Assembly (NCBI GenBank): GCA_027315115.1
Contig: DAHUYQ010000039.1
Coordinates: 1 to 64,000, forward strand
Reading direction: 5' to 3'
DNA length: 64,000 bases
From: Solirubrobacterales bacterium
GTDB lineage: Bacteria; Actinomycetota; Thermoleophilia; Solirubrobacterales; Solirubrobacteraceae
Shown here piece by piece: positions 43,677-63,805 of the stretch; the stretch's first letter is position 1; the number at the start of each line of letters is the position of its first letter. The position numbers and the translations under genes were made by a program. The notes below the pieces were generated by a model, which worked only from the letters and a program-made list of their open reading frames with translations, was not told where the DNA came from and did no database searches.

Positions 43677-44011
43677 TCAGGGGAGCTTGCGGCGCGTGTC
43701 TCGCGCCTGCTCGACGAGCTGATCGAAGAGCGTCGGGTGACGATGGGCGGCCTGGCCGGCGAGCAGTGGCTGGACCACGCCGAGTACACCGCGGCACCGC
43801 TCGACCGCTTCCATCGCCTCCAGCGCGTTGAGCTTCGCACGGAAGTAGGGCTTCTGCAGCCCTTCGCGGACCTCTTGGATCAACTGCGGGCACGCGACCG
43901 ACTCAAAATCGCCGTTGTGGACCGCAGCGAGCAGCAGAGCGAGCGGCGCTGTCGGCCGGCCCCCCCCAGCGCGCCAAGCAGCACGTTGGCGTCCAGAATG
44001 AAGCGGCTCAA
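43677..44011 (-). pseudogene. PIN-domain toxin remnant frameshifted at a homopolymer
   Basis: TTG-SRFILDANVLLGALGG then frameshift at C8 (43960-43967) into GRPTAPLALLLAAVHNGDFESVACPQLIQEVREGL. Confidence 0.6.
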
Positions 44012-44099
44012 CCGGCCGCTCGCCGCGCCGCTCGCCCCTCACGAACGACGCGCACTGCTTCAGCCATGACCTCATCGTCATCGACACCGGCGGCCGCGT

Positions 44100-44460
44100 T
44101 GCGCTCCTGCACACGCCGGCGCCGGCGCGTTTCAGCGTGCGCCGCAGCCGCGAGGCGTGGGAGTCCACGGTGCGCGTGGTGCTGATCTGATAGCCCCACA
44201 CTCCGCTGAGAAGCTCAGCACGCGTGAAGACGCGATAGGGCTCGCGCGCAAGATGGGCGAGCAGCGCGTACTCGCGACGACGCAGCTCCAGGCGAGCCTC
44301 TCCGAAGGTAGCCGTCCGTGTCACCGTGTCGATCCTGAGCGGCCTCGCAGAGCGGCAAGACCTTCGCCTCTCTGCGATGCGCGGCCAAAGATGAGCAGAT
44401 CGACACCCTCGACCGTCGCGAGGTTGCTGATCAGTCGAACGTCGTAGCCGTCAAGCGCTA
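44100..44460 (-). pseudogene. response-regulator remnant with internal deletion
   Basis: QLALDGYDVRLISNLATVEGVDLLIFGRASQRG... stop, then EARLELRRREYALLAHLAREPYRVFTRAELLSGVWGYQ; both parts match the intact regulator at 55481-56338. Confidence 0.75.
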
Positions 44461-44736
44461 GTTGCTGACCGCAACCACGACGCCGCCGCCTATCGCGCTG
44501 AGCCCAGCGATAATCGCTGCCGTCTCACTATCAACCATGCCAAGACGCTACGCAGCGCACCGGATGGTCCCTCGTGTGCAGAAAGACGCCGGCCTTCGAC
44601 ATCACGGCCTGTCCGACGCGCCGGGAGCAGCAATGGGTGGCCATACCGCAACCCCAAGTGCCAGAAAAAATTGGACCCCAACCCGCCGCCTCGGCCTACC
44701 GCGGCCGGAAAACCGCCGATTCGCAGGCACTTCCTA

Positions 44737-44786
44737 AGGGGTGAGCGAGGGGACTCGAACCCCCGACCGCCTGGACCACAACCAGG
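44737..44786. repeat. attL-like direct repeat (3' half of tRNA-His)
   Basis: AGGGGTGAGCGAGGGGACTCGAACCCCCGACCGCCTGGACCACAACCAGG, identical to 57042-57091. Confidence 0.93.
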
Positions 44787-44865
44787 CGATGGCCTTCTGA
44801 GCCGCACGGTTATGCGGGTTTTCGATCGCTGAATTCGTTGTTATCACGGCGATCTGGGGTTAGTG

Positions 44866-44931: not shown

Positions 44932-46248
44932 ATGCAGACAGAGAGCACCCGCCGCCCCCGCGATCCGACCGGCGCCCTCGTCGTCACCGAGCGCCGTGCG
45001 GGGCCGGTCTACGAGGCCAAGTGGCGTCGAGACGGAAGACAGCTCAAGCGCTCGATCGGCCCGGCCTGGCTTGAGCGCGATGAGGAGACGGGCGGCTGGC
45101 GCCCCCGCCGCGGGCGCGTGCCCGAGGGCCACTTCGACGAGAAGCGCGCGACGGTGCGGATGGCCGCGATGATCGCCGAGCACGAGCACGAACGACGCGC
45201 CGCGGAAGACGGTGAGCGCGCCCGGCGTGAGCGCGGCGTCACCTTCCGGGACGTCGCCTCGGAGTGGCTTGAGCACCTGCGCCGCGAGCGCGGCGTCAAG
45301 CCAGCGACGCTCAGGGACTACGGATACCTGCTCGCCGAGCCGGGAACGCCCCACCGGCGCGGCGCAGGCAAGAGCGCCGGGCTCATTCTGGCGAGCTTTG
45401 GCGACCGCCCGATCGCGAAGATCACGACCAAGGAGGTCTCCGCATTCCTGCGAGAGCTCGACGATGCCGCCACCTCCCCGCGATCGGTCAACAAGTACCG
45501 CGAAGTGCTCTCAGCGATCTTCAACTACGCCGGCCGTGAAGACACCTACGGCCTCGCCGCCAATCCGGTGAAGGGCACCGTCAAGCGCCGCCAGCCACCG
45601 CCTGCGGTCCTCGACTTCTACGAGCCGCATGAGATCGAGGCGCTCGCCCAGCACGCCGCCGCCGGCAGCCATCGCAGCAAGCGGCACACCAGCCTCGGCC
45701 CCGATGAGATCGCATGGCGTGCGCAGGAGGATGCGCAGGATGGCGAGCTCTTCCGCCTCGCCGCCTACACCGGCTTGCGGTTCGGCGAGCTGCTCGCGCT
45801 GCGCTGGGGCGATGTCGACATGGACGCACGGCGAATCATGGTCCAGCGGGCAGTGTCCGCCAAAGTCGAGGGGCCTACCAAGAGCTGGCAGGCCCGCCTC
45901 GTGCCGCTAGCTGACCCCGCCGCCGAAGCGCTCAACCGACTTCGAGCACGCGGCCACTACACCGCGCGCGGCGACTACGTCTTCTGTTCACGCCTCGGCC
46001 GGCGTCTCAACCCCTCCGCCATCCGCCGCCGGTACAAGGCCGCACGCGAGGCCGCGGGACTCCGACCCCTGCGCTTCCACGGCCTGCGCCATGCCGCCGG
46101 CAGCCTGATCGCCCGCCATGCAGATGCCCGCTTCGTTCAAGACTTCCTCGGGCACTCGCGGATCGCGACCACCGAGCGCTACATGCACGCGAAGGCCCGG
46201 CCGGAGGACGTGGACCGGGTCAACCTCGCATTCCAAGTGACGACGTGA
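44932..46248 (+). CDS. tyrosine-type site-specific recombinase / integrase
   Basis: [54 protein letters not shown] (R-H-x-x-R-H-Y). Confidence 0.95.
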
Positions 46249-46270: not shown

Positions 46271-46996
46271 GTGAACATCGGCGTCTACATCGATGGATTC
46301 AATCTCTACTACGGTGCCCGCGAACTCTGCGGCAGAGGCACACCCGGCTGGCGATGGCTCGACCTCAAGGGCCTATCCACGGAGCTGCTGCCGCCTTCCT
46401 GGTTGAGCGGCGAAATATCACGCATCGTCTTCTGCACGGCCCGCGTTGACCCCGGCAGCGACCCGTCAAGCGCTGCCGACCAGGACGTCTACCTCAAGGC
46501 GCTGAAGGCATCTGGAAGCGTCGACATCATCGAGTACGGCTACTACGTCTCGCGCGTCAAGCGGGCGCCGCTCGCAACGCCCGACCGCAAGGGCCGGCCG
46601 GTGCTCACACCCTCGCGGTGGCCGGTGATGGTCCGTGACTCCAACGCGTCCGATGTGCCGGACGCCAAGTTCATGGTCTCCTACGCCTACCGCGAGGAGA
46701 AGGGCTCAGACGTGAACGTCGCCGCGCACATGCTGCTCGACATCTTGGACGGCACAGTCGACGCGGCGATCGTCATCTCCAATGACAGCGATCTGCGCTT
46801 CCCGCTTCAGCAGGCCCGCCGGCGCGTGCCGGTCGGCACCGTCAACCCCACTCGCTCCTACATCGCCGGCGCCCTGCGCGGCACGCCCAACGATGGAGTC
46901 GGCGGCCACTGGTGGCGCCAGCTGACCGCAAGCGACTGCGCGGCCCACCAGCTCCCCAACCCGATCGGAACGTACACGAGGCCCGACGGCTGGTAG
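46271..46996 (+). CDS. NYN-domain (PIN-like) protein
   Basis: GTG start; [58 protein letters not shown]. Confidence 0.88.
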
Positions 46997-47102: not shown

Positions 47103-47321
47103 CTACGCGCCGCCGGCACGCGCGCTCCGCACCGCCGCCTCGACCTCATCACGGAGGAAGATCCAACGGCGGCCGAGCTTGCGAGCGGGCAGCAGGCCGC
47201 GGCGCGCGTATTCGAGGACAGTGGAGATCGGCATGTGCAGCAGGTCCGCGACCTGCCGGCAGTCGAGAACGTCCTCGCGAGTAAGGCGCGGATGGCTCGG
47301 GATGTGCGTGTGAGCGCTCAT
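47103..47321 (-). CDS. small HTH DNA-binding protein (excisionase/AlpA-like)
   Basis: CRQVADLLHMPISTVLEYARRGLLPARKLGRRWIFLRDEVEAAV. Confidence 0.85.
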   Translation of the reverse strand: MSAHTHIPSHPRLTREDVLDCRQVADLLHMPISTVLEYARRGLLPARKLGRRWIFLRDEVEAAVRSARAGGA

Positions 47322-48301
47322 CGGAGGGAACCATTGCGCTGCTTCGGCTGGCGCTTGGTGCAGCGACTGCGACTCGTCCGGCGCCTGCTCGGCGGCATCG
47401 CCGGCTTGGCGGGCTTGGCCGGGCCCGAGGTCAGCACCGGCTGTCGGGACATTGCTGTGAGCCTCACGCCCGACATGCGCACACCCCCGCGCCCGTGGGC
47501 ATAAAGACCGCGCCGCGCGCGAGCCGTCCCCAGCGCGCGATACGATCCCGGCGTCGTCATAGATGCAATGGGAGTGACGGTGGTGCAGATTCTGCTCCAC
47601 CGTGGCAACAGCGCGTCTGACCCAGAGACGACCAGCGCACCAGCCAATCTGGCACGGTGCCGCTGATTCGACGGGACCGTCGGGGATAGGACTGACGGTG
47701 TTGGAAAGTTTCCGCGACCGTCGAGCCGAGCGTGACCGACGCGGAGACGGACTAGCCGTCGTGGCGTTTCGCCACCACCGTGCCCACTGCCCCGATAAGG
47801 CGGGTTGTGCAGAGTTGTGAGCCTTTCTTGCCCGCGGCGCGGGGCGTGCAACGCAGCCGCGGGGTGCAGGCGCACGAGCAGCGCATGCAACGCCGCCGGG
47901 CTGGCAAACGCCGACTGTGGGCCGGCCGGCCTGAGTGCCGGCGAAGTGCGATGTGGGTTGACGGGCATTCTCACCCATAGGTGCGCACCACGCCCCACCC
48001 GATTCCCTCGAAGCATCCCTCGCAGCCTTCTGTGGCTGCTGGACGCCCTCGACGCGTACGCGCCTGCCCGGACAGACCACTCGCATCCTCCGCTGGCCGC
48101 GCCGCCATGCAGCCGCGTCACTCACCAGCACGCCCGCATCCCGCCGCCTGATCCGCCGAACACCGGCTCAGCGCTCGATCGCGCCGTAGACGCCCCGCCC
48201 TGACTCTGACCCCGCTCGCCAGGTCCCCCGAACTGCTCCATGCCTCACACGTCTTGCATCACGGGGAACGCGCCGCGCACCTGGCGGGTGTGACGGTCTC
48301 G

Positions 48302-51300
48302 ATGCGTGTGATGTCCGCCGGCAACGGATACCGGTATCTGCTCACCTCGGTGGCTGCTGGCGATGGGCAGCGTTCCCTCACCAAGCCGCTGACCGACTAC
48401 TACACGCAGATGGGCACCCCGCCGGGCTACTGGCTTGGCAGCGGGACCGGCGGTCTGGGCACCAGCGAGCACGGCATTCAGGCGGGCGGGACGGTGAGTG
48501 AGGAGCATCTGCGGCGGCTACTCGGCCAGGGCCACGACCCGATCACCGACGCGCCACTTGGCTTGCCGTACTACAAGCCCAAAAGCGTCGAGGAGCGGAT
48601 CGCGGCGCGCGTGGACCAGCTCGATGCAAACCTTGCGCCATCGGAGCGGGCGTCGGCGGTTGAGCGGATCGAGGCGGAGGAGCGTGAGCGTGGCGCGCGG
48701 AGGGTCGTGGCGGGCTATGACTGCACGTTCTCGGCTCACAAGTCGGTGTCCGCGTTGTGGGCGATCGCCGATGCGGAGACTCGAACGCGGATCATGCGGG
48801 CGCATCATGCGGCGATCGCGGATGTCGTTGCGTTGATGGAGCGCGAGGTTGTAGCTACGCGGGTTGGGCACAACGGTGTTGCGCAAGTCGGCGTCCGTGG
48901 GCTGATTGCAACTTGCTATGACCACTACGACTCACGTGCTGGGGATCCGCAGCTGCACACGCATGTCGTGGTTGCGAACAAGGTGCAGGGCGCTGATGGG
49001 AAGTGGCGTGCGCTGGACGGCCGACCGATGCACGCCGCGGTCGTTGCGCTCTCGGAGCATTACAACGCGCTGCTGGCCGACCGGCTGACCCGTGATCTCG
49101 GCGTTGCATGGGAGCAGCGCGGCCGCGGCGCGGATCGCAACCCTGCGTGGGAGATCACGGGCGTGCCCGAGGCGCTGATCAGAGAGTTCTCCTCGCGCAG
49201 CGCTGCGATCGACACTGAGAAGGACCGGCTGATCGCAGCCTATGTCGCTGAACATGGACGTCAGCCGGGCACGACGATGATCCTCCGGCTGCGGCAGCAG
49301 GCCACGCTCTCCACACGACCAGAGAAGATGGCCCGCTCGCTGCAAGAGCTGACCGGCCGGTGGCGCCACCGCGCCGGCGGTGTGTTGCAACACGACGCCT
49401 GTGTCTGGGCAGAGCAACTCCTCGCCGCCAGCGCACACTCCGGGCTGATCCGTGCGCATGAGGTGACGCGCGAGCAGATCGCCGCAGCGGGCCAGGCTGT
49501 GGTCGAGCAGGTGCAGGGCAAGCGCTCGACTTGGCGGCGTTGGAATCTGCACGCGGAGGCATCGCGGCAGACGATGAGCCTACGCTTCGCTTCGACTGCC
49601 GATCGCGAGATGCTTGTCGGGTTGATCGTTGAGGCAGCAGAGGTAGCATCGCTGCGGATCACCCCGCCCGAGCTGACTACGGCGCCGGCGGCGTTCACTC
49701 GCACGGACGGGTCCAGCGTGTTTCGCCCCCGCCACGCAACGGTCTTTACATCTGTGGCGCTGCTGGCCGCCGAGGAGCGGCTGCTCGACCTCGCTCGCAC
49801 ACCGGCCGGACCGGCTCTTGAACGCGCGCTCGTCGACCGCATCGCCAGCTCCCAGGATGAGCAGGGGCGGTTGCTTTCAGCCGAACAGCAGCGTGTGGTT
49901 GAGCGGATCGCGACCTCTGGTCGGATACTGGACCTGCTGGTCGGACCGGCCGGCGCCGGCAAGACACTCGCGCTCGGGGCGCTGCGCCGCGCCTGGGAGA
50001 GCAGCCACGGGCCAGGCAACGTGATCGGCCTCGCCCCCTCTGCCGCCGCGGCGGAGGTGCTGGCAGGCGAGCTTGGCATCCCGACCGAGAACACCGCCAA
50101 GTGGGTCCACGAGCACAACCACGACCGCTGGAACCTCACGCCAGGGCAGCTTGTGATCCTCGACGAGGCATCCCTGGCCGGCACCACCACGCTCGATCAG
50201 CTCGCCACCCACGCCGCCCAGGTCGGCGCGAAGATCCTGCTCGCTGGAGACTGGGCGCAACTGTTCGCGATCGACGCCGGCGGCGCGTTCGGAATGCTCG
50301 TCCGCGACCGCAACAACCAGCCCGACAATGATCCCGCGCCGGAGCTTTACGAGGTGCGTCGTTTCACCAGCGAGTGGGAGAAGGCCGCCTCGCTGCGCCT
50401 ACGCGAAGGCGACACCGACGTGATCGGCATCTACGACCAACACGGACGAATCATCGGAGGCGACCACGACCAGATCCTCGACGCCGCATACCGAGCCTGG
50501 CAAACCGACACAGCCGCCGGGAATACGAGCATCCTGATCGCCGAGACCACCGAGACCGTCAACGCCCTGAACCAGCGGGCACGAGACGACCGGGTACTCG
50601 CCGGGCAAGTTAGCTCCGATGGTGTCGCCCTGCACGACGGCACCCTGGCCGGGCAGGGCGACACGATCATCACGCGCAGCAACGACCGGCGTCTGGCCAC
50701 AGGCCGAGGGTGGGTCAAGAACGGCGACCGCTGGACCGTCCTTCACGCCCACCAGAACGGGAGGCTGACCGTCCGCCGCCACGGCGCCCGCGGGCGGCGA
50801 GGAACCATCACGCTCCCCGCCAGCTATGTCGCTGAGCACGTCGAGCTTGGCTACGCGATTACCGCTCACCGCGCCCAGGGCGCGACCGTCGACACTGCGC
50901 ACCTGCTGGTCCACTCAAGCTCCATGACAAGGGAGGCGCTCTACGTCGCACTGACTCGCGGCCGCCACTCGAACCGTGCCTACGTCGCCACCGACGAGGC
51001 GCACCTGGAGGCCCACCAGCACACCCCCGACTTCCAGAACAGGCTGGTGACAGCCCGCTCGATCCTCACCGCCGTCCTTCAACACCAAGGCGGCGAACGC
51101 TCCGCACACGAGACGATCACCACCGAGCAAGACGCCTGGACGAGCATTAGCCAGCTCGCCGCTGAATACGAGACGATCGCTCAAGCCGCACAACACGACC
51201 GGTACGCTGCCACCGTTGCGCGTAGCGGGCTTGCCGCCGCCGAAGTAGAGGCCGTCGTCGACAGCGAGTCGTTCGGCTCGCTCGTCGCGCAACTCCGTCA

Positions 51301-51865
51301 TATCGAGGCCGACGGGTACGACCCAGAGCAAAGCATCGCCCGGGTCGTGCGAGCCTGCGGGTTCGACGGCGCCGACGACCCTGCCGCCGTTTTCGCATCC
51401 CGCTTGGCGAAGCTCACCGCGACGCACTCCAGCGGCACCCGACCACGCAGCCGTCCCCGTTATGTCGCAGGGCTCATCCCCCAAGCCATCGGCCCGATGC
51501 CTGCCGACATGCGTCGCACCCTCACCGAACTCGCCGAGCTGATCGAGCAGCGGGCGGACGTGCTCGTAGAGGACGCTATCGAGGTGCGGCAACCCTGGGT
51601 CAGAAGCCTCGGCTCTCCGCCGAGCGACCCGGCACGGTGTGCCGAGTGGCGACAACAGGTGCGCACCGTTGCCGCCTACCGAGACCGCTACGACATCTGT
51701 GGCAGCGACCCGCTTGGCCCCGCGCCTACCCGCCGAGGCCAGCGACTCGCCCACCAACGCGCTACCTTGGCCGCCGGGCAAGCCCATGCGGCAACCCGCC
51801 AGAGCATCAGACGACAACATGGGCCACGCCAGCAAATCGCCACGCGCCACGACCTCGGCCGATAG
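48302..51865 (+). CDS. MobF-family relaxase/helicase (TrwC/TraI-like)
   Basis: YYTQMGTPPGYWLGSG; DPQLHTHVVVANK three-His motif; LLVGPAGAGKTLALGAL Walker A; GYAITAHRAQGATVD. Confidence 0.93.
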   Translation: MRVMSAGNGYRYLLTSVAAGDGQRSLTKPLTDYYTQMGTPPGYWLGSGTGGLGTSEHGIQAGGTVSEEHLRRLLGQGHDPITDAPLGLPYYKPKSVEERIAARVDQLDANLAPSERASAVERIEAEERERGARRVVAGYDCTFSAHKSVSALWAIADAETRTRIMRAHHAAIADVVALMEREVVATRVGHNGVAQVGVRGLIATCYDHYDSRAGDPQLHTHVVVANKVQGADGKWRALDGRPMHAAVVALSEHYNALLADRLTRDLGVAWEQRGRGADRNPAWEITGVPEALIREFSSRSAAIDTEKDRLIAAYVAEHGRQPGTTMILRLRQQATLSTRPEKMARSLQELTGRWRHRAGGVLQHDACVWAEQLLAASAHSGLIRAHEVTREQIAAAGQAVVEQVQGKRSTWRRWNLHAEASRQTMSLRFASTADREMLVGLIVEAAEVASLRITPPELTTAPAAFTRTDGSSVFRPRHATVFTSVALLAAEERLLDLARTPAGPALERALVDRIASSQDEQGRLLSAEQQRVVERIATSGRILDLLVGPAGAGKTLALGALRRAWESSHGPGNVIGLAPSAAAAEVLAGELGIPTENTAKWVHEHNHDRWNLTPGQLVILDEASLAGTTTLDQLATHAAQVGAKILLAGDWAQLFAIDAGGAFGMLVRDRNNQPDNDPAPELYEVRRFTSEWEKAASLRLREGDTDVIGIYDQHGRIIGGDHDQILDAAYRAWQTDTAAGNTSILIAETTETVNALNQRARDDRVLAGQVSSDGVALHDGTLAGQGDTIITRSNDRRLATGRGWVKNGDRWTVLHAHQNGRLTVRRHGARGRRGTITLPASYVAEHVELGYAITAHRAQGATVDTAHLLVHSSSMTREALYVALTRGRHSNRAYVATDEAHLEAHQHTPDFQNRLVTARSILTAVLQHQGGERSAHETITTEQDAWTSISQLAAEYETIAQAAQHDRYAATVARSGLAAAEVEAVVDSESFGSLVAQLRHIEADGYDPEQSIARVVRACGFDGADDPAAVFASRLAKLTATHSSGTRPRSRPRYVAGLIPQAIGPMPADMRRTLTELAELIEQRADVLVEDAIEVRQPWVRSLGSPPSDPARCAEWRQQVRTVAAYRDRYDICGSDPLGPAPTRRGQRLAHQRATLAAGQAHAATRQSIRRQHGPRQQIATRHDLGR

Positions 51866-52308
51866 CTCTGACGGACACACGGTGGCGAGCATTCGCCTGC
51901 GCGCGACCACACGATCGGGGATGTAAGAGCGGACCTCTGCAGACAGGGCTGCTCGCGCGCACCGTGCAGGCAAACGGGGCGCCGTTGGGATGGCTGCTGC
52001 TCGTCCGTTGGGAGCATGTCGGGCTCGCCCCGGAGGACGCTCGCAACCATTGGAGAGGAGAAGTCGGAAGAAGATCGCTTACCCGAGCACCGAACTTCTG
52101 TAGGCGAGCGCCGAGATCTCTGCGCGCGAGCATCTCATCGGAGCTCCATCCGACTAAGTCGTCCGCCGGCTGACTACAATTTGCATATAGGTCAAGTCCA
52201 GTGCGCGGTGAGCGGTCGCTCAGGTCCAGCCTGACCCACTGCAGCCGCCGGGTGACGTGGCCGCCCTGTCCAGGTGGTCAGCTGACCACACGACTTGAGG
52301 AGAGCCCC

Positions 52309-54189
52309 GTGGCTACTGCCCCTGAGCCGCCGTCTGCCGGCGATCAGCCCAACCTGGGTGGCGACGACGTGATCGCGCCGCCGATCCCGCCCGACCGCAC
52401 GATGAAGATGGATGTCGGGGAGATCGGATTTCTACTAGAGCGCCTCGGCGCCGACTGCGGTGATCAGCAGTACTTGCGCGAGCTGACGATGAACTCGCTT
52501 GAGGCTGAGGCGATGAATGTCATCTGGGATGTCGACTGGAAGCTCCACGAGGCGTCCGGCGGCTCTCTCTACAAGCTCTGTTGCATCGACGACGGGCGCG
52601 GGATGGGGGCGCGCGAGATGATCCAGCACATCAACAACCTGTCGTCTTCCGGGCGCGTGCAGGCGATGGACGCCAACTTCGGCGTCGGTGCCAAGATCAG
52701 CGCGGCCACACGCAACCCGGCCGGCGTCGTCTACCAGTCCTGGCAGGACGGTAAGGGCTCTATGATCCAGCTCTGGCGGGACCCGACCAGCCGTGAGTAC
52801 GGACTGAAGCAGTTCCGGCTGCCAGACGGCTCCTACAGCTACGTCGTGCCGTTGACCGATACCGCCAAGCCGGACATCATCGACGAGCACGGCACTAAGG
52901 TGACGCTGTTCGGCTTCGACGACGGCGATGACACGATTACCGCGCCGGAGGGCGTGCCGACTCCGTCGCGGTGGTTTGCCCGCTACTTGAACGCGCGGTT
53001 CCTCGACTTTCCCCAAGGGGTGACTGTTCGCGCCCGGCAGGGCTGGACGTACGACCCGGAAGACTCAAACCACAACATCCTGCAGCGCGTTCGCGGCATG
53101 GGTAACTTCCTCACCGAGCACGCAGAACACTCCGGCGTCGTCGACCTCACCAGCTGCCGGGTTCACTGGTGGATACTCGATGACTCGGAGAAGCGTCGGA
53201 AGACCAGCGAGCTACCGAACACTGGCCACTTCGGCGCGCTCTATCAGGGTGAGCTCTACGAGATGACGACTGGTCGCGGCGGAACCGCCCGCCTGCAGCA
53301 GTTCGGCGTCCTTTTCGGTCCCGACCGCGTCGTCCTGTACGTCGAGCCCAAGAACGGTCCGGACCGCCCTCTGTCGGCGAATACTGCACGCACGCAGCTG
53401 CTGCTCCGCAACGCGCCGCTGCCCTACGGTGAGTGGGCGCACGAGTTCCGCTCGAACCTCCCGCAGGAGATCCGCGACTACATGGACGCCGTAATCGCTG
53501 GCACCAAGGGTGTGGACAACAGTGAGTCGATCATGGAACGCCTAAAGGCATACGTGAAGCTGTTTCGCCTCTCGCGCTACCGCTCGCAGGCCGGTGGCCC
53601 ACTGCGCGCTGGTGAGCGCGTCAGTGGTGGGCGCAGTCCCGGCGAGGGCACGATCCCAAAGGAAACCGTCGAGCCTAAGCCGGCGGCGCATAAGCCCGGC
53701 AGCCAGACCGGCGACCTGCTCGCCTCAATGCTCGCAGCCGATGGGGATGAGGCGGCTGAGCTGCCGCCCGCCGAGCCGTCGATACCTAATGTGGTCTGGC
53801 TCAGCGCCTCAGAGGGCGCGAGTACCCCTGACTTGCTCGACGACCGCGCCGCGCTGTACCTCCCAGATGACAACCTCATCCAGGCCAACGGTGACTTCCG
53901 CGTCTACACGGACATGGCCGACTACTGGAGCGACGAGTACGGGATGCCGCACGGCAGCGAGATCATCGTTGCAGTCGTTCGGGAGTGGTTCCAGCAGGCG
54001 CTCGTCGAGACCGTCCTCGGGGCTCAGGCTCTGCAGGGCGAGCGGCGATGGTCGCCCAAGGATATGGAGACGATTCTTAGTCCTGAGGCACTCACCGCCG
54101 CGGTGATGCAGCGCTACCACGTCGCCAATGCGGTCAAGCGGACCCTCGGAGCAAAGATCGGATCGCTGCGCGAAAAGGCTGGGGCGTAA
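52309..54189 (+). CDS. GHKL (HSP90/MutL/MORC-type) ATPase, large protein of unknown function
   Basis: N-box ELTMNSLEAEA; G1 box CIDDGRGMGAREM; G2 box NFGVGAKISA; GTG start preceded by GAGGAG. Confidence 0.8.
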   Translation: MATAPEPPSAGDQPNLGGDDVIAPPIPPDRTMKMDVGEIGFLLERLGADCGDQQYLRELTMNSLEAEAMNVIWDVDWKLHEASGGSLYKLCCIDDGRGMGAREMIQHINNLSSSGRVQAMDANFGVGAKISAATRNPAGVVYQSWQDGKGSMIQLWRDPTSREYGLKQFRLPDGSYSYVVPLTDTAKPDIIDEHGTKVTLFGFDDGDDTITAPEGVPTPSRWFARYLNARFLDFPQGVTVRARQGWTYDPEDSNHNILQRVRGMGNFLTEHAEHSGVVDLTSCRVHWWILDDSEKRRKTSELPNTGHFGALYQGELYEMTTGRGGTARLQQFGVLFGPDRVVLYVEPKNGPDRPLSANTARTQLLLRNAPLPYGEWAHEFRSNLPQEIRDYMDAVIAGTKGVDNSESIMERLKAYVKLFRLSRYRSQAGGPLRAGERVSGGRSPGEGTIPKETVEPKPAAHKPGSQTGDLLASMLAADGDEAAELPPAEPSIPNVVWLSASEGASTPDLLDDRAALYLPDDNLIQANGDFRVYTDMADYWSDEYGMPHGSEIIVAVVREWFQQALVETVLGAQALQGERRWSPKDMETILSPEALTAAVMQRYHVANAVKRTLGAKIGSLREKAGA

Positions 54190-54291
54190 GCATAGCACGC
54201 ACAGAAGCGAGTCGACGTATAGTGAATCGGACCTGACGCGCCGAGTCTCGCAATCGGACATACGCAGAGCACTGCCGCGAGGGGTGAAACG

Positions 54292-55104
54292 ATGGAGTAT
54301 CCCGAGGAGAATGCGCTCAACATCTACACGGATGGCTCAATGTTGCCTGGCCCGCGCCGCGGCGGCGCGGGACTGCTCTTCATCGCAGTAGACAGCGAAG
54401 GAAACGAGGAACAGCACGAGGAGATACTGCCGGGCTTCGCCAGCGCCACCCAGAATCAGATGGAGCTTGAGGCGGTGATCCAGGGTCTAAAGATGGCGAC
54501 CGGCCGCCACCCTCCATTCGACCTGTCGAGATACCGAAAGATCGTCATCAAGACTGATGCGACGTACGTGGCGGAAAACTTTGGCACGGCGGTATCGGTC
54601 TGGTCAAGAAATGGCTGGACGACGAGACGGGGCAAGCCAGTCGACAACGCCAAGCAGTGGAAGGAGCTCGTCCGCCTTGTCGTACTCTCAAGCAAACACG
54701 GAAAGCCGGTCAGACTCGTTCGTGTACCAGGTAAGAGAAGCCCGCGAACGAAGGCTGTGGACAAGCTCGCGAAGCAGTCCGCGAAGAACGCCTCAAAGCG
54801 CCAACTAAACCCACATGAGGTCCGGCGAAAGAGAACTGACCAGCCAATTGAGATCGGGAGTGTGGAGATGGAAGGGCAGTTGATGACTATCCACATCTTC
54901 AAGTCGGAATATCAGCCGCTGCATCGTCTGTCGAAGTACTGGTACTCGGTGATATCCAAGACAAGCCCATACCACGGGCTTGCCAGCACCATCTACTCCG
55001 AGCTTCATCACCTCCGTCGACGGACGTACCGCGTGCGCGTCAATCGCGACACGGGAAACCCTCGTATCGTGAAGGAGTTCGGCGAGGTGGAGCGGGCCAA
55101 CTGA
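54292..55104 (+). CDS. RNase H-fold protein with C-terminal extension of about 90 aa
   Basis: IYTDGSMLPGPRRGGAGL, NQMELEAVIQGL, IVIKTDATYVAENF, KAVDKLAKQSA (D-E-D-D); RBS GAGGGG. Confidence 0.85.
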   Translation: MEYPEENALNIYTDGSMLPGPRRGGAGLLFIAVDSEGNEEQHEEILPGFASATQNQMELEAVIQGLKMATGRHPPFDLSRYRKIVIKTDATYVAENFGTAVSVWSRNGWTTRRGKPVDNAKQWKELVRLVVLSSKHGKPVRLVRVPGKRSPRTKAVDKLAKQSAKNASKRQLNPHEVRRKRTDQPIEIGSVEMEGQLMTIHIFKSEYQPLHRLSKYWYSVISKTSPYHGLASTIYSELHHLRRRTYRVRVNRDTGNPRIVKEFGEVERAN

Positions 55105-55480: not shown

Positions 55481-56338
55481 CTAAACGCCGTGTCTAGACG
55501 GCCAAAGGGCCAGGTTCCCCGTATTCATGCGGGATCGCGGCCCCCGAGTCGGCCTGTCCCCGAACGCCTCCGGAGCGACCTGTCGTGGAGACAGTCCTCT
55601 GAGGGTCAGGGAGTTCGCTTGCTCATCGGCTCCCGCCGGTGGGTGCAGGTGGGGTGTGAGGCGGTAGCCGACGCCCCATGTCGAGGACACCCACCCCACC
55701 GCGCCGGCGTGCGCGAGCTTGCGGCGCAGCCGCGAGACGTGGGAGTCCAGGGTACGTGACCTGTCGTCGGACGGGTAGCCCCAGACGCCTTGCAGCAGCT
55801 CGGCCTTCGTGAAGACGCGGGTGGGTTCGTGGGCGAGATGCAGCAGCAGCGCGTACTCCCGCCTTCGTAGCTCCACGCGTCTCGTTTCGTAGGTCACGGT
55901 CTGCGTGGCGGTGTCGATCGTCAGAGGCCCGTGTCTGATCACGGGCGGCGGCTCGTCGGCGGGTCGTCGTAGGAGCGCTCGCACGCGCGCGAGCAGCTCT
56001 GCGTAGACGAACGGTGCGCGGAGCACGTCATCGGCGCCCGCCTCAAAGGCCCGCAGAGTCTCCCTGACGTTGGTGGTCGTGCTGACCCAAAGGACGCGAG
56101 CACCGGACCCCGCGAGCGGGCTCTGACGCAACGCTCGCAGGCAAGCAAACGCTGCGTCTCGGCGCGATGCATGAGCAAACACGATCAGATCGACCGCGGT
56201 CTGCGGCGTAAGGTCGCTGATCAGCCTTACGTCGTAGCCGTCGAGCGCCAGCTCATCGGCAAGCGTCACGTTCTCGCTCTCCTGGCCGTAGATGGCCAGG
56301 ACAGAGGGCGCAACTCGCGGGATATGCTCCGGCTGCAT
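55481..56338 (-). CDS. OmpR/PhoB-type response regulator with degenerate receiver domain
   Basis: C-terminal VELRRREYALLLHLAHEPTRVFTKAELLQGVWGY...DSHVSRLRRKLAHAGAVGWVSSTWGVGYRL; receiver lacks the acidic pair and phospho-Asp. Confidence 0.85.
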   Translation of the reverse strand: MQPEHIPRVAPSVLAIYGQESENVTLADELALDGYDVRLISDLTPQTAVDLIVFAHASRRDAAFACLRALRQSPLAGSGARVLWVSTTTNVRETLRAFEAGADDVLRAPFVYAELLARVRALLRRPADEPPPVIRHGPLTIDTATQTVTYETRRVELRRREYALLLHLAHEPTRVFTKAELLQGVWGYPSDDRSRTLDSHVSRLRRKLAHAGAVGWVSSTWGVGYRLTPHLHPPAGADEQANSLTLRGLSPRQVAPEAFGDRPTRGPRSRMNTGNLALWPSRHGV

Positions 56339-56480: not shown

Positions 56481-56723
56481 ATGCCCCCGCCGCTTCCACC
56501 GGACCCAGCACTCGGCCTCGCGATCAAAGAGTTGCGCGAGGCTCGCGGCTGGACGCAGGAAGAACTCGCCAGCAACGCCGGCACCACAGTCGGGACCATC
56601 AGCCGCGTGGAGGCCGCCAAAAACGCACCAGCCTGGGCGACCGTCATGCAGATCATCGACGCCCTCGGCGTGTCGCTGACCGAGCTGGCCCGCGCGGTCG
56701 AAAAGGCTCGGCGCAGCGAATGA
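56481..56723 (+). CDS. XRE-family HTH regulator
   Basis: LAIKELREARGWTQEELASNAGTTVGTISRVEAAKNAPAWATVMQIIDALGVSLTEL. Confidence 0.88.
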   Translation: MPPPLPPDPALGLAIKELREARGWTQEELASNAGTTVGTISRVEAAKNAPAWATVMQIIDALGVSLTELARAVEKARRSE

Positions 56724-57041: not shown

Positions 57042-57091
57042 AGGGGTGAGCGAGGGGACTCGAACCCCCGACCGCCTGGACCACAACCAGG
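57042..57091. repeat. attR-like direct repeat within tRNA-His
   Basis: Identical 50-bp copy of 44737-44786. Confidence 0.93.
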
Positions 57092-57118
57092 AGCTCTACC
57101 AACTGAGCTACGCCCACC
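57045..57118 (-). tRNA. tRNA-His (GTG)
   Basis: Cloverleaf GGTGGGCG...GAGCTCCTGGTTGTGGTCCAGG...GGGGGTTCGAGTCCCCTCGCTCACC; extra G-1 opposite C73. Confidence 0.95.
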
Positions 57119-57939: not shown

Positions 57940-60141
57940 ATGCCAACTGCTCGCCTCACCAGGCGGCTGGTCGGCCGGGTACTGCTGGGTCTACCTTACC
58001 CCTCTCGCAGCGGACGGCTGACCGCACCTTCAAGCCAGCGCTTCGGAGCGTGGTGGACACGCCACCCAAGGCTGCTGCATGCCTTCGCGCTGCTTGCGCT
58101 CTGCTGGAGCGCCGGCTACCTGGCCTGGCGGATCGGCTTCAGCGCCGGGGGCGCAGAGCCCGTCCTCTGGGGAGCGCTGCTGCTCGCCGAGCTCTACGGG
58201 CTCTGGAACCTCGCCATGCTTGCGTGGATGACCTGGGAGGTCGGCGTGCGCGACGACCGGAGCACCGGCCTCGCGACAGGCTCGGCGGGCGCGGCCTGCG
58301 CCGCGGAGCTCACCGTCGATGTCTACATCTGCACATACGACGAGCCGCTGCACGTGCTGGAGGCGACGCTCGCCGGCTGCGCGCTGCTGGATCGAGCACA
58401 CACGACCTATGTCCTGGACGACGGCCGCCGCGAGGAGGTCCGGCAGCTCGCCGCAGCCTGGGATGCGACCTGGGTCACGCGGCCCGACAAAAGCCACGCC
58501 AAGGCAGGCAACATCAACCATGCGCTGCCGCTGACCGACGGCGATCTCGTGCTGGTGCTGGATGCGGACCACGTGCCGATGCCTGACGCGCTCAGCATTC
58601 TCTGCGAGCCGTTCGGTGACCCGACTGTCGCGCTGGTGCAGAGCCCGCACGACTTCTCCAACCACGACTCGATCCAGCACTACGCGCTGGGACGCCACGA
58701 GCAGTCGCTGTTCTTCTCGGTGATCTGCCCCGGCAAGGACCGCCACGGCGCGGCGTTCTGGTGCGGCTCAGGCGCCGTGATCCGCCGCGACGCGCTGCTG
58801 CAGGCGGGTGGCGTGGCCACCGAGACGATCGCCGAGGACTTCCACACGACGATCAAGCTGCACAGTGCGGGATGGAAGAGCAGGTACGAGCCGCGCACCG
58901 TCGTTCAGGGCTTGGCGCCGCACGACCTGGCCTCCTATCTGCTGCAGCGCGACCGCTGGGCGCGCGGCAACCTCGCGGTCTTCACCACCCCGGAGAGCCC
59001 CCTGCGCGCTCGCGGTCTGAGCCGTGCGCAGCGGATGAGCTACTTCGCGAGCCTCACCGGCTATCTGGCGGGCCCGATGCGGCTGCTGCTGCTGGCCGTC
59101 CTGATCGCGGTGCTGTGGAGCGCCGCGCTGCCGCTGCGCGTCGCGCCGGTCGCGCTGGCGACGCTCTGGGCGCCCGCGACGCTGCTCGGCATCCTTGCCG
59201 GCACCGCGCTCTGCCGTGGCGTCCAGAGCGCCGCGGAGACGTCCCACTTCGAACTCTGCACAGCCGAGATCTTCACGCGGGCGCTGCGCTGCGCACTGAG
59301 GCCCGGCCGCGCGAGCTTTCGCGTCACGCCGAAGGAGGGCGTCGACCCCGGCGGCTGGCAGTCGGTGCGCCAGTTCCGTGCCGTGCTCGTGATCGCCGTG
59401 CTGCTGGGCGCGGGCATCGTGCTCAGAGTGATCCAGGACTTCGGCGCCGGGTTCCTCCCGAGCATGCCGGGCTTCGCCGCCTGGTTCGTGCCGTTGCTCG
59501 GCGCGCTGGAGTTAAGACGAGTGCTCCGCACCCTGGCGGTGGCCGGACGCAGACGCCAGCTCCGCACCGAGTACCGCACGCCGCTGGAGACCTCCGCGTT
59601 CGTGGAGCGGCTGCAGGCCGCCGAGCCGCCACTGTCTCTCGGGCGGCCGCGTGCCGCCGAGCCGCCGCAGTCCCTGGCACCGCCGCGTGCCGCCGAGCCG
59701 CCGCAGTCCCTGGCACCGCCGCAGGCCGTCGAGCTGACGCGGCCGCGGAGCGTCATCGCCGCAGAGCCGGCCAGGACGCCGCTGCTGGCCAAGGTCCACG
59801 ACATCACCCACTCGGGCCTCGGCTTCGAGCTGGCGACGCCGCTCGATCGGGAGACCGTGGTGCGCCTGTCGCTGCGCCTGCCAGGAGTCGACAGGGAGCG
59901 CGCGAGCACGATCACGTTCGAGGCGCAGGTCCGATCGTGCCACCAGACAAGCTCGGGCTGGCGAGTCGGCGCGGCGATCACGCACGCCGACGAGGACGCC
60001 CGTCGACGGATCGTCGAGTACTGCCACGTCGTCTGGCCCTACCTGCGGCTGCGTGGGATGGACGATCAGCTTCCACTCGCGGCGCCCACCACCGCGCCGC
60101 TGGCCGTCTCAGAGGTCTCTTTGGAGGCCGTGCCCGCATAG
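57940..60141 (+). CDS. cellulose synthase-like GT2 glycosyltransferase with C-terminal PilZ domain
   Basis: YICTYDEPLHVLEATLAGC; VLDADHVPMPDAL; QRDRWARGNL (QxxRW); multiple TM; PilZ-like THSGLGFELATPLDRETVVRLSLRLPG. Confidence 0.88.
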   Translation: MPTARLTRRLVGRVLLGLPYPSRSGRLTAPSSQRFGAWWTRHPRLLHAFALLALCWSAGYLAWRIGFSAGGAEPVLWGALLLAELYGLWNLAMLAWMTWEVGVRDDRSTGLATGSAGAACAAELTVDVYICTYDEPLHVLEATLAGCALLDRAHTTYVLDDGRREEVRQLAAAWDATWVTRPDKSHAKAGNINHALPLTDGDLVLVLDADHVPMPDALSILCEPFGDPTVALVQSPHDFSNHDSIQHYALGRHEQSLFFSVICPGKDRHGAAFWCGSGAVIRRDALLQAGGVATETIAEDFHTTIKLHSAGWKSRYEPRTVVQGLAPHDLASYLLQRDRWARGNLAVFTTPESPLRARGLSRAQRMSYFASLTGYLAGPMRLLLLAVLIAVLWSAALPLRVAPVALATLWAPATLLGILAGTALCRGVQSAAETSHFELCTAEIFTRALRCALRPGRASFRVTPKEGVDPGGWQSVRQFRAVLVIAVLLGAGIVLRVIQDFGAGFLPSMPGFAAWFVPLLGALELRRVLRTLAVAGRRRQLRTEYRTPLETSAFVERLQAAEPPLSLGRPRAAEPPQSLAPPRAAEPPQSLAPPQAVELTRPRSVIAAEPARTPLLAKVHDITHSGLGFELATPLDRETVVRLSLRLPGVDRERASTITFEAQVRSCHQTSSGWRVGAAITHADEDARRRIVEYCHVVWPYLRLRGMDDQLPLAAPTTAPLAVSEVSLEAVPA
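59617..59724 (+). repeat. three 36-nt in-frame tandem repeats in the GT2 gene
   Basis: AAEPPLSLGRPR / AAEPPQSLAPPR / AAEPPQSLAPPQ. Confidence 0.9.
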
Positions 60142-61043
60142 CCGGCAAGCCGCGCGCGCATCAGCGACACCGCTTCGGGGTTGCTGTCGATCAGCACGTA
60201 GCGCCGGCCGCTCTCCGCGGCGGCCGCCCCGAGCGTGCCGCTGCCCGCGAAGAAGTCCAGGCACCAGTCCCCCGGCCTGCTGGACGCGGCCACGATCCGG
60301 CGCAGGATCCCAAGCGGCTTCTGGGTGGGATAGCCGGTCTTCTCGGCGCCGCTGGTGGGCACGATCGTGTGCCACCACACGTCCGTCGGCAGCTTGCCGC
60401 GCGCAGCCTTCTCGGGGGTCACCAGCCCCGGCGCCATGTAGGGCTCGCGGTCCACCGCCTCACTGTCGAAGTGGTAGCGCCGCGGGTCCTTGACGTAGAC
60501 GAGGATCGTGTCGTGCTTGGCGGGCCAGCGGCGCTTGGAGCGCCCTCCGTAGTCGTAGGCCCACACGATCTCGTTCAGGAAGCACTCCCTGCCGAAGACG
60601 CGGTCCAGCAGCAGCTTGCAGTAGTGCGCCTCGCGGTAGTCGATGTGGAAGTAGAGCGTCCCTTCCTGGCTCAGGAGTCTGTGCGCGTGCCGCAGCCGCG
60701 GCTCCAGGAAGGCGAGGTAGTCGTCGTAGGCGTCCTCGTAGAGCTGCTCGGAGACCGGCGTGCTCGCATAGCGGCGCCCTTTGAAGCCGACCCGGTCCCC
60801 CTGCTCGTCCGGGACGGTCTGCAGGACGACGCGACGCCGCGAGCTGCCCGTGTTGAACGGCGGGTCGATGTAGATGAGCTGAAAGCTGCCGTCGGCGAAC
60901 TGGTCGAGCAGCTCGAGGTTCTCGCCTTCCAGGATCTCGTCGCGCTCCGGGGCGCGGGCGCCGCCTCGGAGAGGGGCGCGGGCAGCGCATCGGAGAGGGG
61001 CGCCAGCGGCGCCTCGGCGCGGGGCGCGGGCGCCGCCGCTCAC
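60066..61043 (-). CDS. site-specific DNA-methyltransferase (N4-cytosine/N6-adenine type)
   Basis: LIYIDPPFNTG (DPPF); TQKPLGILRRIV; DFFAGSGTLGAAA (FxGxG). Confidence 0.9.
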   Translation of the reverse strand: MSGGARAPRRGAAGAPLRCAARAPLRGGARAPERDEILEGENLELLDQFADGSFQLIYIDPPFNTGSSRRRVVLQTVPDEQGDRVGFKGRRYASTPVSEQLYEDAYDDYLAFLEPRLRHAHRLLSQEGTLYFHIDYREAHYCKLLLDRVFGRECFLNEIVWAYDYGGRSKRRWPAKHDTILVYVKDPRRYHFDSEAVDREPYMAPGLVTPEKAARGKLPTDVWWHTIVPTSGAEKTGYPTQKPLGILRRIVAASSRPGDWCLDFFAGSGTLGAAAAESGRRYVLIDSNPEAVSLMRARLAGYAGTASKETSETASGAVVGAASGS

Positions 61044-63805
61044 GCGACCGCCTTCAGATGGCGGTAGGGCGTGCCGCGCAGCTCGCGCACGACCGCGTCC
61101 AGCACGCCCTCCTCGTCCTGCCGGCGTCCGTCGGTGACCGCGCCGATCACCACCCGCTTGCGCTCCAGCAGCGTGGCGATCGTCTCGTCGATCGTGTCGC
61201 TGGCGAGCAGGTAGGTGGCGTTCACCGCGTCCTGCTGGCCGATCCGGTGACAGCGGTCCTCGGCCTGCTCCAGCTTCGCGGGGGTCCAGTCGAGCTCCAG
61301 GAACGCGACGTTGGACGAGCGCGTGAGTGTGAGGCCGTGCCCGGCCAGCTCGATCGAGCAGACGATTAGCTGATTGTCGAGCCCGCCCGCCCCGTCCGGC
61401 TCCTGGAAGGCGGTGACGGCGGCGTCCCGCGCGGCGTGGTCGTCGCCGCCGAGCACGTGCAGCGCGGTCGGGAAGCGCTCGATCACCGCGCGCTGGATCT
61501 TGCGGTGGCGGGCGAATACGACAAGGCGCTCCCCTGAGGCCAGGAAGTCGTGGATCCAGGCGAGCGCCGCGTGCAGCTTGCCCTCGGCGGCCAGCAGCTT
61601 CAGGGCGTTGAGCCTCACGAGCCGCTCGGCCCGAAGCGCCGCGGCGACCTTGGCGTCCAGCTCGCGCAGGTCCAGGGGCTGTGTGCGAAGCCAGGCGATC
61701 ACGTCGCGCTCGGCGAGTCTGTACTCCGACTCGTTGTCGAGCTCGACGGGCACGATCGCGCGCGTCTTGGCCGGAAGCTGCGGCAGCACCTCTGACTTCA
61801 GGCGGCGCACGAAGCAGCGCGAGCGGAGGTGCCAGTGCAGGCGTAGGTTCGCGTCGGCGCCCTGGAAGCGCCTGCTGAACTGCGCCCCGGAGCCGAACTC
61901 GGCGAGCCGGCCGATGATCCGAAGCTGTGAGATCAGCTCCGCCGGACGGTTCATCACCGGGGTGCCGGTGAGCGCGAGCACCAGGCCGTCCTTGGGCACC
62001 GCGGTCGCGAGACGGTGCACCGCCTGGGTGCGCTTGGCGGCGGCGTTCTTGCAGTAGTGGGCCTCGTCGAGCACGAGCGCGCGCGGACCAAGCGCGGAGA
62101 GCGCGGGCAGCCGCGCGGCGAGGATGTCGTAGTTTACGATGCTGATCTCGGCGTCCGGCAGCGGGCCCGCGCCGGTCCCGGAGACGACCTGCACCTCACG
62201 GCCGGGCAGCCAGCTTCGCACCTCGCGCGCCCAGTTGAGCTTCAGGCTGGCCGGGCAGACGACGACCGCCGGGTAGGCGCCGTCGGCCTCGATCGCGGCC
62301 AGCGCCTCAATCGTCTTGCCGAGCCCCTGCTCGTCGGCCAGGAACGCGCGCCGGCGCGAGAGCAGGTACTGCACGCCCGCGCGCTGGAACGGCTTCAGCT
62401 CGCCCGAGAGCTCCGGGACGTCCAGCTCGGCGTCGGTCGCCTTGGACAGCGCGACCAGGCCCGCCGCCTGCGCGTGCCGCTCGCGGATCTCCTGCAGCAC
62501 CGAAAGCGCCTCCGGGTCGACCCAGGCCTCGTGCTCGGCCAGGAACGCGTCCAGCTCCGGCACGCAGAAGGGATCCGCGTGGATCGCGGGCAGTCGTGCG
62601 TGCTCGTGACTCACCGAACGGCCGCCACCAGGCGGCAGCGCGCCCGGCAGCGCCGCGAAGGCGGGCTGCTGGCCGGGATCGTGGCCCGGGGCGAGCACGA
62701 ACGCCGGCTCCTCGTGGACGGTCGAAAGCTCCAGCACCGAGGGCGGCGCCGGCCGCCCCTCCACGAGCGCGGCGATGCAGCGGCGGGCGGCGGGGCTGAT
62801 CCAGCCTCCCGCTCGTGTGACCGTGAGCGAGTCCTCGATCAGCCGCCAGGACTCCAGGCTCAGCGGCAGGCTCGCGCCGCCCGGCACGCTTGCCGCGCGC
62901 TCACGCAGCTCGCTCGGCAGCCGCGAGGTCTCGCCCAGCAGCAGGAAGCAGGCCTCGCCGGCGGCGCCGGTGACTTCGAGCGTGCCGCGCCACGCGCAGG
63001 CCTGCTGCAGCCAGGCGCTGACGCGCACGTCGATCTCGGAGACCTCAAGCGCGGCGAGCAGCTCGGCGATCTGCAGCGCGTCGGGCTCGGCGGCGGCCAG
63101 CGCGAGGCTGCCGCCCATCGTCTCCCGCGCGTGCAGTCCGATCCGCCCCGCCAGCTCTCGGCCGAGCGATGCGTGCTCGGCCGCGATCACGACGAAGCGG
63201 CGGCCGTTTCGGTCGCGCCGCATCTCCACCTCGTGCGAGAGCCGGTCGCCGCCCGCCTCGCCGCCGCCCGCGCCGCCGGAATCCTCGGAGGCCGCGCTGC
63301 GACTGGCCTCGATGAGGGCGTGGCGCGCATCCCGTGAGAGCCGCAGGCCGCTCTGCCCGCGGCCGAGCGCGCCGATGATCATCACAGCCTGCTCGTCGAG
63401 CGGCATCAGCGCGCGGTCGATCAGCGGCAGCCGGTAGGCGCCCGGATGCTCCATCAACGCCTCCACGGCCGCGGGCGCGCGATCTGTGGGGAAGCTCAGC
63501 CACCAGCTCTCATCCGCCCGCGCCACGTCGACCAGGCACTCCTGGCCGTGCCTGCGGCGCCGCAGGCGGGCAAGCTCGGAGGCGAGCTCCTCGCTGATCT
63601 CCGGCTCGATCGGCAGACGCGAGAGGAGCTGCCCCACCGACTCCGCGATCTCCGGGTCCAGCGGCAGCCGCCAGACCCGCGACTCCGGGTCCCAGCGACG
63701 CCCCGGAATCGCGCGCAGCAGCTTGCGCAGGTCGTCGTCGTAGGGGAAGCGCAGCAGCGCATCCCCATCCTGCAGGTAGGCGTGGAGCGCGAAAGGCATG
63801 AGCAC
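61040..63805 (-). CDS. SNF2-family DEAD/DEAH helicase with N-terminal HARP-like domain
   Basis: LKPFQRAGVQYLLSRRRAFLADEQGLGKTIEALAAI; LDEAHYCKN; HRIGQQDAVNATYLLA; N-terminal AIPGRRWDPESRVWRLPL. Confidence 0.9.
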   Translation of the reverse strand: MLMPFALHAYLQDGDALLRFPYDDDLRKLLRAIPGRRWDPESRVWRLPLDPEIAESVGQLLSRLPIEPEISEELASELARLRRRRHGQECLVDVARADESWWLSFPTDRAPAAVEALMEHPGAYRLPLIDRALMPLDEQAVMIIGALGRGQSGLRLSRDARHALIEASRSAASEDSGGAGGGEAGGDRLSHEVEMRRDRNGRRFVVIAAEHASLGRELAGRIGLHARETMGGSLALAAAEPDALQIAELLAALEVSEIDVRVSAWLQQACAWRGTLEVTGAAGEACFLLLGETSRLPSELRERAASVPGGASLPLSLESWRLIEDSLTVTRAGGWISPAARRCIAALVEGRPAPPSVLELSTVHEEPAFVLAPGHDPGQQPAFAALPGALPPGGGRSVSHEHARLPAIHADPFCVPELDAFLAEHEAWVDPEALSVLQEIRERHAQAAGLVALSKATDAELDVPELSGELKPFQRAGVQYLLSRRRAFLADEQGLGKTIEALAAIEADGAYPAVVVCPASLKLNWAREVRSWLPGREVQVVSGTGAGPLPDAEISIVNYDILAARLPALSALGPRALVLDEAHYCKNAAAKRTQAVHRLATAVPKDGLVLALTGTPVMNRPAELISQLRIIGRLAEFGSGAQFSRRFQGADANLRLHWHLRSRCFVRRLKSEVLPQLPAKTRAIVPVELDNESEYRLAERDVIAWLRTQPLDLRELDAKVAAALRAERLVRLNALKLLAAEGKLHAALAWIHDFLASGERLVVFARHRKIQRAVIERFPTALHVLGGDDHAARDAAVTAFQEPDGAGGLDNQLIVCSIELAGHGLTLTRSSNVAFLELDWTPAKLEQAEDRCHRIGQQDAVNATYLLASDTIDETIATLLERKRVVIGAVTDGRRQDEEGVLDAVVRELRGTPYRHLKAVA

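Follow-up and report, generated by a model that had tools for sequence, protein, structure and literature searches.

A GHKL ATPase gene and an RNase HI gene side by side on an integrative mobilisable element of a Solirubrobacterales bacterium

Two genes on an element at tRNA-His

The DNA analysed here (the window) is a stretch of 64,000 nucleotides from a Solirubrobacterales bacterium (contig DAHUYQ010000039.1), and it carries two neighbouring genes on the plus strand. The first (52309..54189) encodes a protein of 626 aa, P0001, which is assigned as a GHKL-S5 ATPase from its open reading frame, its motifs, Pfam and an AlphaFold model. The second (54292..55104) encodes a protein of 270 aa, P0002, which is assigned as an RNase HI with a C-terminal beta domain from its open reading frame, Pfam and Foldseek. 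The two genes are separated by 102 bp, a spacing that does not amount to translational coupling. Plausible ribosome-binding sites are found 5′ of both start codons, GAGGAGAG for the GTG at 52309 and GAGGGGTG for the ATG at 54292; for P0001, the gene-call codon model preferred this GTG to an upstream one at 52201. These positions, along with the strand, the spacing and the ribosome-binding sites, had been given in a first-pass annotation of the window and were all verified on the sequence. The P0001 gene has a GC content of 64.8% compared to 57.9% for P0002 and a GC3 of 81.8% compared to 72.7%, a difference in composition indicating that the two genes may be of different origins.

Both genes reside on a 12.3-kb element that is located at tRNA-His and bracketed by a 50-bp identical att direct repeat. 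The tRNA-His (GTG) gene (57043..57117, minus strand) is the integration target and contributes attR (57042-57091), while attL (44737..44786) is a displaced copy of the 3′ part of the tRNA gene, identical to attR over its 50 bp. Adjoining attL on the plus strand is a tyrosine integrase gene (44932..46248, start possibly at 44863; Phage_integrase, 119 bits), followed on the same strand by a gene for an NYN-domain (PIN-like) protein (46271..46996) and, on the minus strand, by an HTH_17 excisionase-like regulator (47103..47321), the domain of which is found inside a longer open reading frame (47103-48131). A MobF/TrwC relaxase-helicase gene (48302..51865, plus strand) ends 443 bp upstream of P0001 on the same strand. 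Downstream of P0002 are a winged-helix response-regulator-like gene (55481..56338, minus strand; Trans_reg_C) and, towards the element's right end, an 80-aa open reading frame (56481..56723, plus strand) that appears HTH-like by eye. The element is best explained as an integrative mobilisable element in tRNA-His, and the mobile setting described in the first-pass annotation is correct. The same annotation took the pair to be the only non-mobility, non-regulatory cargo of the element, which is incorrect, as the NYN-domain protein is encoded between integrase and relaxase. This protein matches phrog_7929 (function unknown) and is possibly an extra RNA-targeting cargo.

The tRNA-His sequence is present in other genomes of the genus, and in at least two of them (G740 and G739) the contig in question has additional, incomplete copies close by, so the site has probably been used recurrently for integration. 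Just outside attL, the response-regulator region recurs in degraded form at positions 43677-44731, with stretches 70-81% identical to 55692-56251; this resembles the right end of a related, older element in this tRNA-His. Just beyond attR and outside the element, N6/N4 DNA methylase and SNF2 helicase genes are found on the minus strand (60066-63799).

The two proteins

P0001 is a member of the GHKL ATPase superfamily, as judged from its motifs and predicted fold. Its N-terminal GHKL domain (residues 34-200) contains intact Bergerat motifs: an N-box with E58 and N62, DDGRGM(G) around residues 94-99, NFGVGAK at 123-129 and GT at 195-196. Among 17 aligned family members with identities down to 17%, these motifs are invariant or nearly so, and most are invariant. 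The GHKL domain is followed by a predicted S5-like transducer domain (residues about 220-400), as in MORC and paraMORC proteins. Within it, R361 is invariant in the 17 aligned members and lies in the loop NTARTQLL, which we take to resemble the catalytic-arginine loop of Hsp90, PLNVSRE. The remainder consists of a disordered linker (residues about 400-488) and a conserved helical C-terminal domain (residues about 490-626). The Pfam model HATPase_c_3 scores P0001 at 23.8 bits, narrowly below its cutoff of 25, and scores a 54% identical relative at 37.4 bits, above that cutoff. The AlphaFold model (mean pLDDT 72) shows the GHKL domain, a second alpha/beta domain, the disordered linker and the helical C-terminal domain. 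Foldseek aligned this model with MORC2, MORC3, MutL, ParE/GyrB and Hsp90 over about 430 alignment columns; the arrangement of the domains is uncertain, since the query-normalised TM-scores are about 0.3-0.36.

Motifs and predicted fold therefore agree with the MORC/Hsp90-type GHKL assignment in the first-pass annotation. The long C-terminus described there as unassigned is present, but it is not unique to this protein, as residues about 490-626 are conserved throughout the family, phage members included. None of the PADLOC or NCBIfam models matched P0001, searches of PHROGs and of PDB sequences yielded nothing of use, and a tblastn search of phage records gave zero matches. Identification of P0001 as Hsp90/HtpG was considered and rejected: the family profile is only weakly similar to the Hsp90 N-domain (best 34 bits), and P0001 by itself has no PDB sequence match.

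P0002 is, on sequence and predicted structure, an RNase HI with an intact D-E-D-D site. It scores 69.5 bits against the Pfam RNase H model (cutoff 25.8), the four catalytic carboxylates D14, E58, D89 and D157 are all present and invariant in the family, and Foldseek matched it to E. coli RNase HI at 2.5e-12. The first-pass annotation was accurate in calling an RNase H fold with these four residues and in noting an extra C-terminal domain: residues 196-266 form a five-strand beta domain that is conserved in 11 loci. This domain had no separate match among the Foldseek matches listed, and nothing was found when it was used as the sole query against plasmids. General RNase H models were the sole matches of P0002 in the libraries searched, with none in PADLOC.

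Compared to E. coli RNase HI, P0002 shares the fold and the active site but differs in several respects. First, it has the additional C-terminal beta domain. Second, it is encoded in an island or mobile-element setting. Third, its loop GKRSPRTK does not contain a His where the E. coli enzyme has H124. A housekeeping RNase HI was rejected as an identity for P0002 in view of the extra domain, the mobile setting and a score of 75.6 bits against an NCBIfam equivalog cutoff of 160. The host genome, the assembly of which is about 91% complete, carries an RNase HII gene and, in the part assembled, lacks any further P0002 match at E<=1e-3.

Relatives and their neighbours

The recurrence of the pair was studied by running both family profiles against all loci fetched, many viral loci having flanks of 4 kb or less, in which a more distant partner could be missed. 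Among the 39 distinct rows of the GHKL tree (one of them a short fragment) and the 11 loci with the extended RNase H (the window, G047, G127, G096, G205, G175, G192, G423, L065, G658 and G784; the genes in G192 and G658 are broken, and L065 is a viral contig), the two families are adjacent in the window only. At the level of the order, the GHKL family was found in 10 of 232 genomes, the extended RNase H in 6 and both in 2, compared to 0.26 expected (hypergeometric P=0.023, uncorrected for relatedness). In the second genome with both families, G658, the two genes are broken and do not share a contig. A profile search of the phylum, from which very weak matches to the ATPase domain alone (about 18-28 bits, probably housekeeping proteins of the Hsp90/gyrase type) were left out, gave G654 as the sole clear relative.

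The first-pass annotation had proposed a candidate undescribed two-gene system, for which it looked to repeated co-localisation. No such co-localisation is seen in the 39 GHKL rows, 11 RNase H loci and 232 genomes, and the proposal is unsupported: the two families rarely co-occur, the outcome that the annotation itself had named as a refutation, and adjoin each other in one place. That annotation could name no characterised system with this pair, and none was found here that would explain it; neither protein matches PADLOC, the GHKL protein has no NCBIfam model, and a paper on a GHKL and RNase H pair was not found in the literature. The libraries and papers searched thus have no record of the exact pair, yet it is a one-off in the sequences searched, and it resembles one of several exchangeable combinations more than a new system of fixed composition.

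Several relatives of P0001 have nuclease or methylase genes as neighbours. The sister of P0001 in the tree, L012 (54% identical, 100/100 support), is followed 10 bp downstream on the same strand by a DpnII/MboI-type restriction endonuclease gene (148 bits), which also matches Aga_Helical-REase of PADLOC; a DUF4917/PDC-S21 gene comes next. The protein upstream of L012 contains methylase-like motifs by eye (FTG...DPAAGAGD...NPPF) and has no Pfam match. In L013, a 50% identical relative, a DUF3800 gene is found 16 bp downstream on the same strand, with a marginal match of 20.8 bits against a cutoff of 21; the L013 GHKL gene contains stops in the frame that was searched, and its N-terminus may be damaged. 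DUF3800 has been described as an RNase H-fold nuclease (PMC12669027); the DUF3800 protein of L013 did not match the RNase H family when the two were compared by profile. No nuclease was seen downstream of L007, another close relative. L171 has an Eco57I-type methylase gene 140 bp upstream on the same strand and no nuclease in the 1.8 kb downstream. The methylases of L012 and L171 were rejected as clear homologues of each other, as they share only a short motif match. L174 has a SIR2 gene nearby and, by reading, an apparent Dcm end adjoining.

More distant full-length relatives (about 23% identity) occur on two alphaproteobacterial plasmids. There, a 76-aa open reading frame and the GHKL gene are found upstream of GajA-like and UvrD-family genes (L009 7745-14486 and L011 5743-11048; the GajA match is 731 bits in L009, the only one of the two scanned for GajA), an arrangement that is possibly a GHKL-linked Gabija variant. 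These proteins differ from P0001 in their partner genes and form a separate deep clade in the tree.

GHKL members on phage contigs are near ERF, YqaJ, SSB, gp32 and methylase genes according to Pfam and, by eye, near RecT, UvsX, terminase and PD-(D/E)XK nuclease genes; the Pfam set consisted mostly of two genes on either side plus nine recombination and SSB genes added by hand, so its tally is biased. On IMG/VR contigs (L129, L137, L139, L140, L144, L149-L152, L060 and L130), the GHKL relatives near recombination, SSB or packaging-type genes suggest a role in DNA metabolism in phages.

The extended RNase H family has a different set of neighbours. Its members are found alongside an AbiJ/Abi_C gene (L032), an NsnA-like GmrSD_N gene with a HEPN gene (L033), a HEPN gene (L123), a PRTase-CE/HD (PRTase_III-A) gene (L030) and a PIN gene (L028), and some of these stretches contain an integrase. 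The RNase H relative in L123 (7855-9060; G423) is 402 aa long; its sequence continues past the beta domain, with a very weak hint of HNH (E 0.04). Collectively, the neighbours point to an island nuclease whose surroundings change from locus to locus. Genes for DUF4917 are found near both families, in L012 for the GHKL family and in L030 for the RNase H family (38% identical), a pattern more suggestive of common islands than of a common operon.

A proposed clamp with an interchangeable nuclease

As the best explanation we propose, tentatively and at somewhat below even probability, that P0001 is an ATP-operated clamp that licenses an interchangeable nuclease for defence. P0001 would be a probably dimeric clamp of the MORC/MutL/Hsp90 build. 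We infer that it would load onto DNA, that ATP binding would close it on nucleic acid or a nucleoprotein complex, and that the closed clamp would recruit or license a separately encoded nuclease, with P0001 and P0002 physically coupled. The nuclease slot would be interchangeable, being filled by the RNase HI with beta domain in the window, the DpnII/MboI-type enzyme in L012 and DUF3800 in L013. In the window, the pair would cut the RNA strand of RNA:DNA hybrids (primers and R-loops) in incoming replicons, i.e., provide an element-borne defence.

The licensing model is favoured because, in all three loci, the GHKL gene is immediately followed by a nuclease gene in the same orientation, and because the GHKL motifs and R361 are intact, the predicted fold is GHKL plus transducer and the RNase HI site is complete. 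A role in defence is favoured because GHKL relatives are near DUF4917/PDC-S21 (L012), GajA and a UvrD-family helicase (L009) and SIR2 (L174), and because RNase H relatives adjoin AbiJ, NsnA-like and HEPN, HEPN and PRTase_III-A genes. The licensing model is weakened by L007 and L171, as no nuclease was seen downstream of either, and by the marginal DUF3800 match and the empty RNase H profile comparison in L013. The defence reading is weakened because phage members are near recombination and packaging genes rather than defence genes, which fits DNA processing. A wider formulation, in which a family of GHKL-S5 clamps borne by mobile elements uses an interchangeable nuclease subunit (RNase HI with beta domain, DUF3800 or DpnII/MboI endonuclease) and extends to phages for recombination or packaging, is possible but leans towards doubtful.

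The strongest alternative is that P0001 and P0002 are chance neighbours, two separately acquired cargo genes (a stand-alone island RNase H and a GHKL protein of the element) that were joined once. The observations that favour it also weaken the licensing model, namely a linkage confined to the window, the difference in GC and the 102-bp gap; in addition, the neighbours of one family are for the most part not those of the other. Against it, the two genes are adjacent on the same strand, the two closest relatives of P0001 (L012 and L013) also have a nuclease gene in the same position, and both families are found together in more genomes of the order than expected, one of the two cases being unlinked with broken genes. 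We regard coincidence as a serious contender that is nonetheless somewhat unlikely.

A second strong alternative, which is less probable still, is that the pair serves the element's own DNA processing and has no role in defence: the GHKL clamp would aid conjugative transfer or replication with MobF, and the RNase H would remove RNA primers. P0001 follows MobF on the same strand at a distance of 443 bp, and other GHKL members are near MobF (L064), a T4SS coupling-protein gene (L009), SSB genes (L006, L014, L137 and L141), ERF/YqaJ, gp32 and, by eye, a PD-(D/E)XK-like gene. However, L012 and L013 are accompanied by the endonuclease and DUF3800 genes, with no mobility gene in the stretches read, and the RNase H family is mostly found beside Abi-type genes. 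Finally, a relic of a paraMORC-type restriction-modification system, in which a GHKL family working with an N6-methylase and an endonuclease would in this element have lost the former and had the latter replaced by RNase H, is highly improbable: it would fit the described paraMORC context (PMC2292703), the L171 methylase, the motifs upstream of L012 and the apparent Dcm end beside L174, but the element contains no methylase, the protein upstream of L012 has no Pfam match, and the methylase and SNF2 pair of the window is outside the att sites.

The suggestion in the first-pass annotation that the ATPase may gate the nuclease is plausible, given the analogous paraMORC restriction loci and VcSduA and because close relatives of P0001 pair the ATPase with other nucleases. 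In VcSduA, a Shedu protein with an N-terminal GHKL domain, GHKL control of the nuclease has been proposed, and E27A and K557A each abolish anti-phage activity, so that both activities are needed for phage defence (PMC12137116). The window pair shares the proposed logic of an ATPase-controlled nuclease and the linkage of a GHKL ATPase and middle domain to a nuclease. It differs in that VcSduA combines both parts in a single fusion, the nuclease being a DUF4263 PD-(D/E)xK enzyme, whereas the window has two genes and an RNase HI; DUF4263 had no Pfam match in P0001 or P0002. Prokaryotic MORC and paraMORC families have been assigned to restriction-modification loci by gene context (PMC2292703). Like P0001, paraMORC proteins have a GHKL and S5 module with an extension past S5 and are encoded near nucleases and, in relatives of P0001, methylases. 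Their typical neighbourhood of SFII helicase, methylase and endonuclease is not that of the window, where the element has a relaxase-helicase and RNase H, and methylases are found in relatives alone.

The window pair represents a GHKL protein with a nuclease, which is an already known kind of pairing, in a combination that is new to the libraries and papers searched. GHKL-controlled nucleases are known from MutL, and they have also been described in paraMORC restriction loci, by context, and recently in VcSduA. The RNase H family with the beta domain, which is repeatedly found beside abortive-infection genes and is unnamed in the libraries searched, offers another candidate for a function in defence. 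If it is true that one clamp accepts nucleases of different folds, the family would provide a direct test of whether the clamp chooses the target and the nuclease only cuts.
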